From positions 1-38,588 of the IMG/VR virus record IMGVR_UViG_3300011114_000525: a stretch of 38,588 bases of DNA, one strand, 5' to 3'. Positions 9,798-18,814 of the stretch are shown one piece after another (the first letter of the stretch is position 1; each line of letters starts with the position of its first letter). The position numbers were made by a program, and so were the translations under genes. The notes beneath the pieces are model-generated. The model was not told the origin of the DNA. It ran no database searches and saw only the letters and a list, made by a program, of their open reading frames with translations. The stretch is from a virus.

Positions 9798-10078
9798 TCA
9801 AACATCAAGAGACACATCCAAACCTGGATGTTGAGGGTTGTTTCGGATGCAAAGTGTCGGCAGTCGGATTCAGCGCAGAACTTATGCCTACCCGTACTGG
9901 TTCTTCACGGTCGGCTGTGATTGCACAGAAAGATCGTGTGCTAGAAAAGGACTTGGCAGCATACAAACGTTTACGTGACGATGGTGTGCAACCAAAAAAC
10001 ATTGATGGTTCGGCAACGGTGGAAGCGAGAGCAAACGAAAAATGGCAGGTCGAAACAGGGATACTTCCAGACTTCTAA
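9794..10078 (+). CDS. Conserved small actinophage protein with CxxC motif, 94 aa
   Basis: It starts with GTG at 9794 overlapping the previous stop (GTGA). The N-terminus has HPNLDVEGCFGCKVSAVGFS, a pattern I associate with a small protein found near structural or glycosyltransferase genes in actinophages. The CxxC (residues 16-19) could bind a metal with other ligands, but only one pair is present. The second half is helical and Lys/Arg/Asp-rich (DRVLEKDLAAYKRLRDDG). It overlaps the GT-B gene by 37 bases. Function unknown. Confidence 0.6.
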   Translation: MIKHQETHPNLDVEGCFGCKVSAVGFSAELMPTRTGSSRSAVIAQKDRVLEKDLAAYKRLRDDGVQPKNIDGSATVEARANEKWQVETGILPDF

Positions 10079-11175
10079 ATCTTGTTGGGGTTGAAGAACC
10101 CAAGATTGGTTACGGCAAAATTGTTGAAGGGTTACGCAAAGCGTTATCTAATCAGGTAACACTTGACGAACAAGCAGAATCGGTGGTGTATGTGACTACA
10201 CCGAACATGGTTAAAGGCTGGTATCAGGGGCAGAAGGTTTCGTTTATTACGATGTGGGAAACAAACCAGTTGCCATCAAAGATCAAAGACTTTTTGCCGT
10301 ATGTGGACACAGTAATTGTTCCGTCTATGCACAACTTTGATTTGTTTTCACAGTTCCACAACAATGTTCACATGATCCCGTTGGGTGTTGACCGTGCAGT
10401 TTGGCGCACATCAGACGTTATTCCGCACGGCAAGTTCCGTATTTTGTGTGGTGGATCAGAGTGGCATCGTAAAGGTTTGGGTGTGGTGCTAGAGGTGTTT
10501 CAAAAGTTGGCGTTACCTGACGCAGAGTTGTGCATCAAAATTGTGCCACCGTACCTGTACGCGCCCGACCTGACGGGTATTCCCAATGTGACTGTTTACG
10601 ATAAATGGATGACCGAAACAGACGAAGCAGATTTGGTGCGTTCATGCGATCTGTTCGTGTCGGCTTCCCGTGGCGAAGGATTTGGTTTGATGCCGTTACA
10701 AGCAATCTCTGCTGGTGTTCCGGTGGTGTTAACAAACGCTCACGGTCATCGAGAGTTCGCTGATCTTGCGACGCACAGGATTTCTACAACAAGTGTGCCT
10801 TGTGAGAACGGGTTTTGGAGTGGGGCAGGCGATTGGGATGAACCGAACCGTGACGAGTTGGCTGCTGCGATTCTTGATGTGTATGACAACCGTGGCAAGT
10901 ATCGTCGTCAGGCAGCCCTGACATCGTTTGCGGTAGGGGCGTTTAACTGGCATACAGCAGCCGATCAACTGTTACAAATTGTTAAACCAACCAGCAACAC
11001 ACGGTCTGAGGTTTGGGTTCCGCTAGAGCCAACCTGCGAAATCGAGGTAACTAAACGGGTGCAGGCCGACATTGGTGGACACAGGGTTGAATTAGCCCCA
11101 GGGGTCAAACATCGTGTAGTGTTGAATGTACGTGACGTTCTATTCAAAGCAGGATTACTCAAATGGGATTGTTGA
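10042..11175 (+). CDS. Glycosyltransferase, GT-B fold, family 4-like
   Basis: This 377-aa protein has the GT4 layout. An N-terminal Rossmann half has a Gly-rich loop (EPKIGYGKIVEGL, residues 19-31). A linker holds VHMIPLGVD (near 109-117), and the C-terminal half has a WHRKG lysine (residue 144) and the donor-binding motif SRGEGFGLMPLQ (209-220), whose Glu is the retaining GT-B acid. The ATG at 10042 lies within the preceding gene; it gives a complete first beta-strand, so I keep it. The last about 70 residues (after 310) form a small beta domain not needed for catalysis. It is cytoplasmic and probably transfers a sugar to a virion protein or to the GT-A product. Confidence 0.8.
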   Translation: MAGRNRDTSRLLNLVGVEEPKIGYGKIVEGLRKALSNQVTLDEQAESVVYVTTPNMVKGWYQGQKVSFITMWETNQLPSKIKDFLPYVDTVIVPSMHNFDLFSQFHNNVHMIPLGVDRAVWRTSDVIPHGKFRILCGGSEWHRKGLGVVLEVFQKLALPDAELCIKIVPPYLYAPDLTGIPNVTVYDKWMTETDEADLVRSCDLFVSASRGEGFGLMPLQAISAGVPVVLTNAHGHREFADLATHRISTTSVPCENGFWSGAGDWDEPNRDELAAAILDVYDNRGKYRRQAALTSFAVGAFNWHTAADQLLQIVKPTSNTRSEVWVPLEPTCEIEVTKRVQADIGGHRVELAPGVKHRVVLNVRDVLFKAGLLKWDC

Positions 11176-15095: not shown

Positions 15096-15974
15096 ATGAC
15101 TAGGTACGCACAGCGCACACTTATACAGCAGGGTACGGTTGCTAATTGGGGTAAGGCTGCACCTGCTGGTATCGGTGTAGTGAACGGTTACGGTGTTGCA
15201 ACAGGTGGAACAAGTTATCCTGTGACAGTCAGTTCTATCGCTTACACTTTGTTGGCGTTCACAGCAGATGCAAACCTTGTTGTTTCTACTGCTGGTTTGT
15301 TTGATGTCTTGCTTGTTGGTGGAGGTGGAGGCAGTGGCAGTGGCACTTACGGTGGTGGTGGTGGGGGTGGTGGAGGAGTTATTGGTATTCAGGCAACACA
15401 AACAATTTATTTGACTGCTGCAACTTACGCAGTTGATGTCGGCGCAGGTGGAGCAACAGAACTTGTTGGATTGAATAGTGCTATTGGCTCTGTGGTCGCA
15501 GTCTGTGGTGGTGGATTTGGTGGCACAACTGGAGCGTTGCAACCTCGTGGTTCGGGTGGTGGTTCAGGTGGTGGTGGTTCAGATAATAGAATAGGTAGCA
15601 GGTCGGTATTCCTTCTTGGTGGATTTGATGGTGGTAACGCATCGGCTGCTTCAAACTCTCCAGGGGCAGGTGGAGGTGGTGCTGATGGTGCTGGTGGAAA
15701 CTCAACAGCAAATACAAATGGTGGTGCAGGTGGAAACGGCAAAGATATTTATCCGTTTGTCAACTCAGTATCTGTGCTAACTAATCCTTACTACGCTGCT
15801 GCTGGTGGTGGTGGTGGTTACACGGGAACAGTCGGTACGGCTGGCAACGGTGGCGTTGCAGGTTCTACTGGTACAGGCATTGCTGGAGTAAATTATGGTG
15901 CAGGTGCAGGTGGTGGAGTGACTGCTGGTAATGCTGGTGCTGCTGGTCTTGTATTGGTGAGGTTCAAAGTATGA
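15096..15974 (+). CDS. Glycine-rich tail fibre adhesin
   Basis: This 292-aa protein starts MTRYAQRTL and has a short beta domain. From residue 75 it becomes a glycine-rich domain with LLVGGGGGSGSGTYGGGGGG, AVDVGAGGA and several later GGGGG and GAGGGG runs, ending GAAGLVLVRFKV. This order is typical of the phage Gly-rich adhesin domain, in which polyglycine-II helices carry variable loops that bind the host surface. Its long open reading frames on the other strand are by-products of the Gly codons. Likely the receptor-binding protein. Confidence 0.75.
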   Translation: MTRYAQRTLIQQGTVANWGKAAPAGIGVVNGYGVATGGTSYPVTVSSIAYTLLAFTADANLVVSTAGLFDVLLVGGGGGSGSGTYGGGGGGGGGVIGIQATQTIYLTAATYAVDVGAGGATELVGLNSAIGSVVAVCGGGFGGTTGALQPRGSGGGSGGGGSDNRIGSRSVFLLGGFDGGNASAASNSPGAGGGGADGAGGNSTANTNGGAGGNGKDIYPFVNSVSVLTNPYYAAAGGGGGYTGTVGTAGNGGVAGSTGTGIAGVNYGAGAGGGVTAGNAGAAGLVLVRFKV

Positions 15975-16189
15975 GCGCAACATATTTTGCACAAGTCACT
16001 AACGGAATCGTTACAAAGGTTGCTGTCACTTCAGCAGAGTTTATGGATGCTAACCCTGACCGTTATCAGGGCGAATGGCATGAAACTTTTATTGGTGTTG
16101 AGGGTAAGACCTACGCAGGTATTGGTTACACATGGAACGGCACAGATTTTGTTGCGCCAGTAGCACCTGAACTTCCTATTGAGGAATAA
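15971..16189 (+). CDS. Small fibre-module protein with AGIGYTW motif, 72 aa
   Basis: The ATG at 15971 overlaps the adhesin stop (ATGA). The sequence MSATYFAQVTNGIVTKVAVT with a later GKTYAGIGYTWNGTDFVAP matches a small protein family common in cyanophages and other aquatic phages (YFA at the N-terminus, YAGIGYTYD in the middle). Those relatives often lie in tail fibre regions. It could be a fibre assembly or tip protein. This copy is shorter than most relatives I recall. Confidence 0.55.
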   Translation: MSATYFAQVTNGIVTKVAVTSAEFMDANPDRYQGEWHETFIGVEGKTYAGIGYTWNGTDFVAPVAPELPIEE

Positions 16190-17677
16190 GTGCGTGGGTC
16201 ACGCTGGCTGATATTTGCGCCTGTAGCAATACTCGCACTGTTCGCACCACAAGCCAACGCTGAACCTGTAGCGGGGCTACAAACACGGTACTTCATTATT
16301 GATGAAGTACCACCTACACGGGCAGACAACATCTATACCGAATGTGGTAGTGAAGTGGAAAACAACATCAACCGTTCGTATGACGGTGAACCATATTTAG
16401 ATTGCACTAACGATTTGTTTATGGTGCATATGACAGGGTTTATTACGATCCCTGAACACAACACCATAGAGTTTTGGTTGGCTTCTGATGATGGTGGCAC
16501 AATCAACATTGATGGGAACGAGTGGGGCAACTGGTGGGACCAGGGTTGTTCAGCCACCGAATCGGGACAGATAGACATTAGTGCAGGCAGCCAGCCACTA
16601 GACCTTTGGATGTATGAGAACGGCGGGGGAACGTGTCTAATGCTTGCATGGAACATTGACAACACGGGTTGGGTAATCGTGCCTGACGAAGCGTTCACTA
16701 CTACAGTATCGGTTACGACCACAACCGATAGTCCAGTAACAACTATTCAGGAGACAACAACCTCATGGGAATCTACAACAACATCCACGACAACCACGAC
16801 ATCAACGACGACCACTTCTACTATTGCACCCTCTACGACTGTGCCTGTAACAAACCCCTCGACTACTACGACACCTCAAACAATTTATATACCCCCACCA
16901 GAACCAACAATGCCAGACCCGCCAGCAACGGTTCCTCTACCACAAATAGAGCCGCCAGCCATCCCAGAGATACCAGACCTTCCACCAGAGATTGAAACAA
17001 TCCCACCAGAAACATTAAATCTCCCTCCCGAAATTGTAGACACAATGCCCGACGTTGTGGACACATACCCTACTGTTGAGCCACCCGATACCCTACCGTT
17101 TGTCGGACTACTACCCGACCCACCCGACACTATGCCTCTGCCATCAGACACCCTCCCAGACGCACCAGAAACGCTTGACACGCTCCCAATAGAAGTAATC
17201 GCCGAATTACCACCCGAACTCGTAGAAGCCCTCCTAGACGCTGGCGACAGTGAAGTACCCCTCACCGAAGAACAGTTCACTGCCGTTGTGGACACAATCG
17301 CAGACCTAGCCCCCGAAGAAGCAGTAGCACTAATAACTCAAATCCTTGCTACCGCGGTAACACCAGACCAAGCCGAAGCCCTAGCCACCAACCCTGACGT
17401 GTTGGCTGTCATCACCGAAGAACAAGCCACAGAAATCTTTGAAACCATAGATGTAACCGAATTAGATAACACCCAGATAGCCGAACTCACAGCAGCAATC
17501 CAGGGCGCACCCCTCAAAGTCCAAAAAGCCTTCGAAAAAACTATTGACATTTTCGGCGGATTTGACGACTACGTACCAACAGGCTCCAACATTCCTGTAG
17601 GAGAACGACGAACACTCATCGCCATCGCAGCAGGAACAACCCTCACAGCAGCAAGTAGTAAGATAAAAAGGAAATGA
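16190..17677 (+). CDS. Secreted PA14-like protein with Thr-rich and Pro-rich stalk
   Basis: This is a 495-aa protein with a GTG start. Residues 1-24 form a signal peptide (hydrophobic core IFAPVAILALFA, cut near ANA-EP). Residues 28-165 look like a PA14/GLEYA sugar-binding domain: GLQTRYF, a FWLASDDGGTINIDG motif with the Asp-Asp pair, and an ending LMLAWNID. Residues 170-225 are a mucin-like run of Thr, Ser and Val, followed by a Pro-rich stalk (230-335), a helical acidic region and a weakly hydrophobic C-terminus ending KIKRK. It lies between fibre and lysis genes and overlaps the next gene by 4 bases. A surface-displayed or virion-attached lectin is possible; the signal peptide is odd for a fibre. 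Confidence 0.7.
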   Translation: MRGSRWLIFAPVAILALFAPQANAEPVAGLQTRYFIIDEVPPTRADNIYTECGSEVENNINRSYDGEPYLDCTNDLFMVHMTGFITIPEHNTIEFWLASDDGGTINIDGNEWGNWWDQGCSATESGQIDISAGSQPLDLWMYENGGGTCLMLAWNIDNTGWVIVPDEAFTTTVSVTTTTDSPVTTIQETTTSWESTTTSTTTTTSTTTTSTIAPSTTVPVTNPSTTTTPQTIYIPPPEPTMPDPPATVPLPQIEPPAIPEIPDLPPEIETIPPETLNLPPEIVDTMPDVVDTYPTVEPPDTLPFVGLLPDPPDTMPLPSDTLPDAPETLDTLPIEVIAELPPELVEALLDAGDSEVPLTEEQFTAVVDTIADLAPEEAVALITQILATAVTPDQAEALATNPDVLAVITEEQATEIFETIDVTELDNTQIAELTAAIQGAPLKVQKAFEKTIDIFGGFDDYVPTGSNIPVGERRTLIAIAAGTTLTAASSKIKRK

Positions 17678-17841
17678 AACGCCTAGCCAACCTCATCAAA
17701 GACAACGCATGGACATACGCAGGCACAGGCCTAGTCCTGATCACCCTGTCAGGGCCAACGCTTCGGCAAGCGGTATGGGTAGTTGGTGTATCATTGGTGT
17801 TACACGCAGCATTAACTCTCAGCACAAAGGAATCAGAATGA
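17674..17841 (+). CDS. Small two-segment membrane protein, 55 aa (holin or antiholin candidate)
   Basis: The ATG at 17674 overlaps the preceding stop, and the stop overlaps the next ATG, both as ATGA. Residues 1-9 are basic (MKRLANLIK). Two hydrophobic segments follow (about 13-26 and 34-48), and the tail is polar. It sits directly before a second small membrane protein and the endolysin, so it is likely part of the lysis cassette as holin, antiholin or pinholin. The choice cannot be made from the sequence. Confidence 0.7.
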   Translation: MKRLANLIKDNAWTYAGTGLVLITLSGPTLRQAVWVVGVSLVLHAALTLSTKESE

Positions 17842-18074
17842 AAAAAGCACAAGACATCCTCGGTCGTATCGTGGCAGTGTTCCTGTCCTCAGCGTTGGCT
17901 ATCGTTGGCGGTAGTGCTGTGATTGCCCCTGAACTAGAAATTTGGAAGTCGGCTGTGCTTGCTGGTTTCGCTGCATGTGCAACCGTTATTCAAAAGTTGG
18001 CGCAAGCATCACTTGATGGCAAGTTGACAATGGAAGAAATCAACAGCGCGTTCGGCGCAAAACCAGCCAAGTAA
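17838..18074 (+). CDS. Holin, 78 aa
   Basis: I chose ATG 17838, which overlaps the previous stop and has AAAGGA just upstream; a GTG further upstream would lie inside the previous gene. The protein has a basic N-terminus (MKKAQDILGR), two hydrophobic segments (about 10-32 and 37-53) and a helical polar tail (KLTMEEINSAFG). This layout, followed directly by an endolysin, is that of actinophage holins. It would permit the endolysin to reach the cell wall at the end of infection. Confidence 0.75.
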   Translation: MKKAQDILGRIVAVFLSSALAIVGGSAVIAPELEIWKSAVLAGFAACATVIQKLAQASLDGKLTMEEINSAFGAKPAK

Positions 18075-18078
18075 ACCT

Positions 18079-18606
18079 ATGGCATATCCAGTCGTGCCGG
18101 TCAAACTTTGTGACCATCTAAAGAACGCTGTCCCAGGCAAACTAAGCCCAGACAAACTACGCAAAACTGTAGGTGGTACACTCCACCATTGTGCTGCTGA
18201 TGCGTGGGAAGCGATGGTTGAAGCAGCAAACGTGGCTGGTATCAAATTGAGACCAACCAGTTCAGGCGACACATATCGAACACTTGAATTACAAACCAAA
18301 GCGTTCTTTCAAAGATACCAACTAGAACCAACAGGCAACCCTGACACACGCACTTTTGAGGGCAAGAAATGGTATCTCAAAAAAGGTATGGCGTGTTTGG
18401 CTACCCCAGGCAAATCTCAGCATAACCTCGGAATTGCTGTCGATGTAGCCAACGCCAAAGGCCATACACTTGATTGGATGCTCGCCAACGAACACCTCTA
18501 CGGCTTCTCACACGAAGTCCAATCCGAGCCGTGGCACATCCGCTACACACAAGGAAACCAAGTCCCACCTGCCGTTGCAGCCTTCGTTGCTGCGAAAGCC
18601 GTATGA
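18079..18606 (+). CDS. Endolysin, M15 (VanY/DD-carboxypeptidase-type) peptidase
   Basis: This 175-aa enzyme has the M15 zinc site: SQHNLGIAVDV (His115 and Asp122) and SEPWHIRY (Glu150 and His153). An upstream Arg/Gly/Tyr segment (SSGDTYRT) forms the substrate pocket. There is no signal peptide, so export depends on the holin beside it. It cuts peptide bonds in peptidoglycan stems or cross-bridges. No separate wall-binding domain is seen; residues 1-45 may serve that purpose. The stop is 1 base before the next ATG. Confidence 0.88.
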   Translation: MAYPVVPVKLCDHLKNAVPGKLSPDKLRKTVGGTLHHCAADAWEAMVEAANVAGIKLRPTSSGDTYRTLELQTKAFFQRYQLEPTGNPDTRTFEGKKWYLKKGMACLATPGKSQHNLGIAVDVANAKGHTLDWMLANEHLYGFSHEVQSEPWHIRYTQGNQVPPAVAAFVAAKAV

Positions 18607-18607
18607 C

Positions 18608-18814
18608 ATGGATGCTGTTTGGGCTGCTGGTGTTACTGGTGGTTTCAGTCTGTTAGCAATCATCGTTGCCAAACTAGGCAAAGAAAACCGTGAAGACCAC
18701 GCCATAGTGCAAGGCATCCTACGCAACATGCACAAATCTTTGAACCGAACCGAAGACAAAGTAGACAGAATTGACACCGCGCTCACAGACCATGTAAGGT
18801 CCAAGCACAACTAA
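18608..18814 (+). CDS. Small membrane-anchored coiled-coil protein, 68 aa
   Basis: The real start is ATG 18608, right after the endolysin stop. An N-terminal membrane segment (WAAGVTGGFSLLAIIVAKL) is followed by a helical coiled coil, MHKSLNRTEDKVDRIDTALT, with the C-terminus in the cytoplasm or outside. Actinophage lysis cassettes often end with such a protein, related to the DUF2746-like group. It may modulate holin action or connect membranes. Function inferred from position. Confidence 0.65.
   Translation: MDAVWAAGVTGGFSLLAIIVAKLGKENREDHAIVQGILRNMHKSLNRTEDKVDRIDTALTDHVRSKHN

Follow-up and report, generated by a model that had tools for sequence, protein, structure and literature searches.

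Adhesins of the PA14 type carry their head on a long stalk at the surface of the cell. Surface proteins by which phages limit adsorption are already known as well. According to the abstract of PMC9586334, superinfection-exclusion proteins also keep virions from adsorbing unproductively to the fragments of lysed cells; a reference cited there assigns, in its title, early expression to the Llp protein of phage T5. Phages of freshwater Acidimicrobiia have been reported (PMC6802176), and PA14, lectin and signal peptide are absent from the main text of that paper. A published description of the protein presented here was not found in a search that included passages of PMC9586334, PMC6802176, and PMC12143481 and left most subscription journals outside its range, nor did the literature searched contain the combination that sets this locus apart, namely a stalked lectin-fold head on a host-type polytopic anchor encoded in two genes, with exchange of the head.

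Genomic Context

The window, i.e., the whole stretch of DNA that was analyzed, is an IMG/VR record of 38,588 bases, in which a tRNA search found none. Its capsid protein and a gp46-like protein have their relatives in Streptomyces phages, and the interval from gp46 to the holin gene in Streptomyces phage Treat consists of two short hypothetical genes only. A comparison of the capsid protein with 221 + 37 genomes gave zero matches and, having no positive control, is uninformative on the host.

The gene for the surface protein (16190-17677, + strand) lies between fiber and lysis genes, in agreement with the location claimed in an initial sequence-only reading of this DNA. It is preceded by the genes for a Gly-rich fiber-like protein (15096-15974; Pfam PF21722, 4.5e-15; phrog_2295) and a 72-aa protein of unknown function (15971-16189; phrog_14370), and is followed by those for a 55-aa protein with two transmembrane (TM) segments (17674-17841; PHROG 29041, function unknown), a 78-aa membrane protein that appears holin-like from its hydropathy and a weak PHROG holin match (17838-18074; E 0.047), an endolysin of the VanY/M15 type (18079-18606; Pfam PF02557, 7.6e-15), and a 68-aa protein with one hydrophobic segment (18608-18814), all on the + strand. 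The 78-aa protein, which has hydrophobic stretches, also matches PHROG 26427, whose label "nuclease" (5.2e-39) is apparently a mislabeling. Elsewhere in the window, the tail module contains a GT4-type glycosyltransferase gene (10042-11175), and the gene at 27394-27993 matches phrog_2059, an anti-restriction protein family (2.1e-14).

Domain Structure of the Surface Protein

The surface protein comprises 495 aa, starts with a GTG codon and is composed, in this order, of a signal peptide, a PA14 head, a stalk, a helical domain, and a C-terminal hydrophobic segment. A scan of IMG/VR with this protein yielded 107 pattern-matched stretches, of which 97 were confirmed and the best 80 of the 97 used; note that the collection contains near-duplicates, with L001 being 100% identical to the window and some contigs carrying two locus ids. 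The substitutions relative to six relatives affect mainly the third codon position (e.g., 19/13/59 in the head compared to L002), which together with the confirmed relatives shows that the gene is not a chance ORF. AlphaFold2 modeled the full-length protein with mixed quality (mean pLDDT 65.5), with the stalk disordered and the PA14 region mostly at 63-89. PADLOC returned zero matches for the four proteins submitted.

The signal peptide noticed in the sequence-only reading corresponds to residues 1-24 (16190-16261, + strand) and consists of a basic n-region and the hydrophobic WLIFAPVAILALFAP, followed by the predicted cleavage site ANA^E. A single signal-peptide motif ending in [AV]xA^[ED] fits 116 of the 119 viral relatives, and two of the three misses deviate only at residues fixed by the motif (ANA^Q; CWL). 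The two-part stalk had been recognized equally well, with a Thr-rich section at about residues 171-232 (16700-16885; pLDDT <50 for residues 176-203 and 205-232) and a Pro-rich section at about residues 233-333 (16886-17188), which is modeled without regular secondary structure; the Thr content is 42% between residues 172 and 250, and the Pro content 27% between residues 250 and 345.

The assignment of the head (residues 25-170; 16262-16699, + strand) to the PA14 domains, for which the same reading had proposed a structural check, is borne out by Pfam, an alignment of 33 sequences, and the model with its fold matches. Pfam PF07691 reaches 25.8 bits over residues 61-133 (cut-off 24), and the head model is close to PA14 domains of known structure (Z 15-17), with the RsgI-type PA14 domain 6qe7 as top structural match (Z 16.9, 2.2 A over 140). 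The PA14 domain of the sugar-binding adhesin MpAFP, which is available in sugar complexes, is matched at Z 15.6-15.8, and the Flo and Epa adhesins at Z about 12. Invariant positions in the alignment of 33 sequences are C52, C72, C120, C149, and D100-D101-G-G, with D100-D101 aligning with the DDG of the RTX-adhesin PA14 domain 6m8m; in PA14 domains, an Asp-Asp pair lies at the calcium/sugar site. The four cysteines of the head are also in keeping with export. As judged from the model, the head is a PA14 fold of the carbohydrate-binding kind, and may bind glycans.

The C-Terminal Region and the Two-TM Partner

Two features had been missed in the sequence-only reading, namely the two-TM ORF at 17674-17841 and the conserved C-terminal domain, which ends in a hydrophobic tail (about residues 334-495). 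A conserved all-helical domain occupies residues 334-451 (17189-17542, + strand; from the model and alignments A1 and A7), and is followed by a YVPxGSxxPVxxRR motif, a hydrophobic segment (helix 470-487), and the basic tail KIKRK, which together constitute a putative TM1 (17570-17674, + strand). The hydropathy of TM1 is only moderate (1.30, versus 1.21 for the best mature stretch). Alignment A7 contains nine invariant columns across 19 sequences, and in it the anchor segment of the window is 44% identical to that of the host anchor at locus L168. Pfam and NCBIfam searches of the anchor-bearing proteins named their heads, but never the anchor, and a comparison of the helical domain with the PDB yielded no significant match (best Foldseek E 0.2), a list from which absence excludes nothing; the best fold match at Z 8.5 is inside the chance range for helical matches.

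The ATG of the two-TM ORF overlaps the stop codon of the surface gene (ATGA). An equivalent ORF follows all 125 viral ORFs containing the C-terminal domain (CTD) for which 400 bp or more of downstream sequence are available; these encode 97 distinct proteins, that of the window among them. The equivalent ORF starts between -26 and +20 bases from the end of the CTD ORF; the two-TM profile was built from eight source sequences, some of which are inside the 125-locus set. Scanning IMG/VR with the C-terminal alignment matched at least 599 stretches and confirmed at least 403, of which the best 80 were used. The sole match in the phage collection is the lake phage DSL-LC01, in which a 944-aa protein bearing Thr-rich stalks has the two-TM segment fused at its C-terminal end. 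The two-TM ORF of the window shows 33-35% identity to the fused copies, with TLSG and a His common to both. An equivalent layout is also present in a more distant phage, represented by a phage contig in a metagenome-assembled genome (L211:4589-6894, in MAG G531), in the order of a holin-like gene, a gene for a secreted Thr-rich protein, an overlapping two-TM gene, and an endolysin-like gene; the secreted protein has a different head and a basic C-terminal hydrophobic tail.

These features bear on how the protein is held at the cell. It had been described as secreted, and the export signal upholds this part of the claim, whereas free release was discarded in view of the membrane partner and of the conservation of the C-terminal segment. 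Anchoring by LPXTG and sortase was rejected because the motif varies (YVPTGS, YVPVDS, YVMTNQ), and a lipoprotein because the viral proteins are without a lipobox, their predicted cleavage taking place after AxA or VxA, with E or D as the next residue.

Exchange of the Head

A total of 144 CTD ORFs was taken, five of which (L082-L086) come from outside the IMG/VR viral contigs; 118 are complete. A PA14 head is present in 86 of these 118, and the remaining ones carry either an unrelated head (type B), for which zero Pfam matches and zero PDB sequence matches were obtained, or a short one that contains Cys (type C). Starting at the stalk, locus L092 with its PA14 head and locus L095 with its type B head share 95.4% identity across 6.9 kb, and a 66-base part of the signal peptide is 89% identical; the heads in between cannot be aligned, and about 2.5 kb upstream are likewise divergent. 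A similar pattern is seen in the pairs L106/L105 and L102/L107. These comparisons indicate that the head is exchanged between otherwise near-identical phages, with the signal peptide and stalk being conserved.

The head type shows no tie to the directly upstream gene among 65 distinct proteins (48 PA14, 17 type B), and clusters of the upstream gene mix head types (12A:3B, 4A:5B, 4A:2B). The gene immediately 5' of the surface-protein gene varies among the loci. Above the Pfam cut-off, it codes for a 2OG-Fe(II) oxygenase at L011:3017-3673, L041:5432-6001, L112:4328-4945, and L148:1988-2590, and for a sulfotransferase at L023:5334-6008; as these genes are located beside one for a Pro/Thr-rich stalk, it may be asked whether they serve in stalk modification.

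Cellular Counterparts and Host

When run against a genome collection described as covering 84,980 species, the C-terminal alignment revealed four loci, which belong by title to one Microthrixaceae, two Ferrithrix (both Acidimicrobiia), and one Actinomycetota; an earlier scan with a single protein sequence had found zero relatives. Fused anchors occur at several host loci, among them L084, L168-L171, and L173; the 1192-aa protein of L084, for example, consists of RCC1 and DUF285 heads, a Thr-rich stalk, and the fused anchor. A class-level anchor search matched 9 of 395 genomes, two of which, G191 and G195, had E values of only about 1e-4 and were dismissed as spurious on inspection of the sequences. 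Within one family, 16 of 221 genomes matched, comprising eight fused and six split cases, the phage contig in G531, and the two-TM part only in G580; the matches in G580 and G602 are limited to the linker/two-TM part. The family of the L084 genome contributed matches in 3 of 37 genomes, one of them partial. Anchor-type proteins were never seen more than once per genome, and their neighbors, as identified by eye from translations rather than by family search, are of the housekeeping type (GroEL-like, IMP dehydrogenase-like, transporters, oxidoreductases), with a neighbor order that is common between genomes. In the model of a host anchor, the helical domain reaches pLDDT values of mostly 92-97 and is followed by a helix at 119-144, a disordered linker, a basic helix, and helices 218-249 and 254-284, with pLDDT about 52-82 for the linker and the membrane helices after TM1. 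As the viral pair recurs and most cellular copies are fused to surface-type proteins, the phage protein carries a split copy of an undescribed host anchor.

A profile of the phage PA14 head matched 13 of 221 genomes of that same family (best E 6.5e-29), with three of the matches keeping all four cysteines and the DD pair and two more keeping the three covered cysteines and DD; a class-wide sample gave 4 of 395 genomes, none better than 3e-8. The closest cellular kin of the four-cysteine head is, according to these searches, in the same bacterial family as the kin of the anchor. Several lipoprotein-like PA14 proteins of the host family (L214-L217) have cysteines in common with the phage head, and that of L214 combines a Thr-rich stretch with a C-terminal TM segment of its own. 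The 13 genomes with the head and the 16 with the anchor do not overlap, and no host protein combining the PA14 head with the anchor was found among the genomes searched. Since the two genome sets are disjoint, the phage protein has probably been put together, as a chimera, from parts of host type; the earlier idea of capture from a host is supported in the case of the anchor and, at a greater distance, in that of the head, but not for a host protein with both. From the cellular head and anchor counterparts and the MAG-binned phage contig L211, we infer that the host belongs to the Acidimicrobiia.

Discussion

The protein encoded at 16190-17677 is very probably displayed on the surface of the infected cell. 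The C-terminal anchor and the small partner gene, each of which has counterparts in cells, make display much likelier than free secretion, and support the initial suggestion that the protein alters the infected cell surface. Regarding its role, we tentatively favor a phage-encoded exchangeable lectin which is displayed on the infected cell and masks host glycans. The surface gene and its two-TM partner would be expressed late, together with the lysis genes; Sec would export the surface protein, whose C-terminal segment may assemble with the two-TM partner in the membrane like the fused three-TM host anchor, and the stalk would project the head away from the infected cell. The most likely function of the head would be to bind host-envelope glycans and to mask them, which would keep superinfecting as well as newly released virions off the doomed cell and its debris. 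This reading follows the analogy of the superinfection-exclusion proteins in PMC9586334, and the outcome would resemble that of T5 Llp, a protein unrelated to the one described here. If the phage masked its own receptor, the head should track the fiber genes, and the comparison of adjacent genes gave no support for this.

Other roles of the displayed head were considered as well. It may act as an adhesin that tethers the infected cell to neighbors or particles, such that progeny would be released near new hosts; the nearest folds indeed include the cell-cell adhesins Flo, Epa, and MpAFP, and swapping heads on a fixed anchor would suit changing partners, but co-production with the lysis genes would leave adhesion little time to matter, and this role is rather unlikely. 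A similar objection applies to a cargo that improves host fitness or prevents grazing by coating the cell and changing its recognition by protists or bacteria, unrelated to adsorption: unrelated heads are exchanged and upstream cargo genes are variable, which would suit such a function, yet any gain within a short lytic cycle is doubtful, which renders it quite improbable.

The position of the gene pair directly 5' of the holin-like gene and the VanY endolysin, including its translational overlap, would also fit a component of envelope lysis, with the two-TM protein as holin or regulator and the large protein bridging membrane and outer wall like a spanin, and the pair of L211 is likewise located between holin-like and endolysin-like genes. 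However, the module is also fused to surface-type proteins at housekeeping loci, head exchange is unexpected in a lysis protein, and the stretch of DSL-LC01 contains among its 20 features no recognized lysis gene except for one 34% match to the holin-like protein, which is encoded on the opposite strand at a distance of about 2.5 kb. The 55-aa ORF is holin-like in size and site, yet its homologues are fused at cellular surface-protein loci, which lowers the holin reading, and involvement in lysis as a whole seems improbable. The adjoining fiber genes and the potential of PA14 heads to bind host glycans would agree with a structural or accessory virion protein that is exported and then added to released particles. 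This had been offered as an alternative from the outset, but nothing was found in its favor or linking the surface protein to the tail, and the signal peptide, C-terminal hydrophobic segment, membrane partner, and cellular counterparts all speak against it, making it highly unlikely.

Display of a masking lectin may be part of a wider scheme, which we put forward with more reserve: phages of freshwater Acidimicrobiia could share a modular display system, consisting of a three-TM host-type anchor split into two genes and of exchangeable heads with recombination points in the signal peptide and the Thr-rich stalk, with the lectin coat controlling adsorption at and after lysis. A phage of lytic type would then rebuild the surface-protein anchor of its host to present interchangeable binding heads. 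The anchor module is abundant in viral contigs (at least 403 confirmed stretches), exposes an uncharacterized surface-anchoring module in Acidimicrobiia, and provides a functional hypothesis for PHROG 29041; masking, if true, would constitute a Gram-positive, lectin-based counterpart of progeny protection of the Llp type.

Compared with the known PA14 adhesins (MpAFP PA14, Flo1/Flo5, and Epa1), the protein has the fold in common and its Asp-Asp pair can be aligned (6m8m), but it is a phage gene product with a prokaryotic two-gene C-terminal anchor, belongs to a four-cysteine subfamily, and would bind sugars by analogy. It resembles T5 Llp and the superinfection-exclusion lipoproteins in being phage-encoded and, presumably, put on the infected cell, and may have the same effect of shielding progeny from dead receptors. 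Unlike Llp, it lacks a lipobox and has a polytopic split anchor, a large stalked head of lectin fold, and head exchange, and its gene is located near the lysis genes, in contrast to the early expression stated for T5 Llp. Two-TM holins are similar to the 55-aa protein in size and position, whereas the kin of the latter is fused to surface-type proteins in cells and in DSL-LC01. The surface proteins of Acidimicrobiia (L084, L168-L173, L199-L209, and L212) contain the same helical domain, the YVPxxS..RR-TM1 segment, and a two-TM part with TLSG, and also share Thr-rich stalks, in most cases, and heads of extracellular type with the phage protein; they differ from it by carrying RCC1, BspA/DUF285, or other heads, PA14 never being among those seen, and by their mostly fused anchor.
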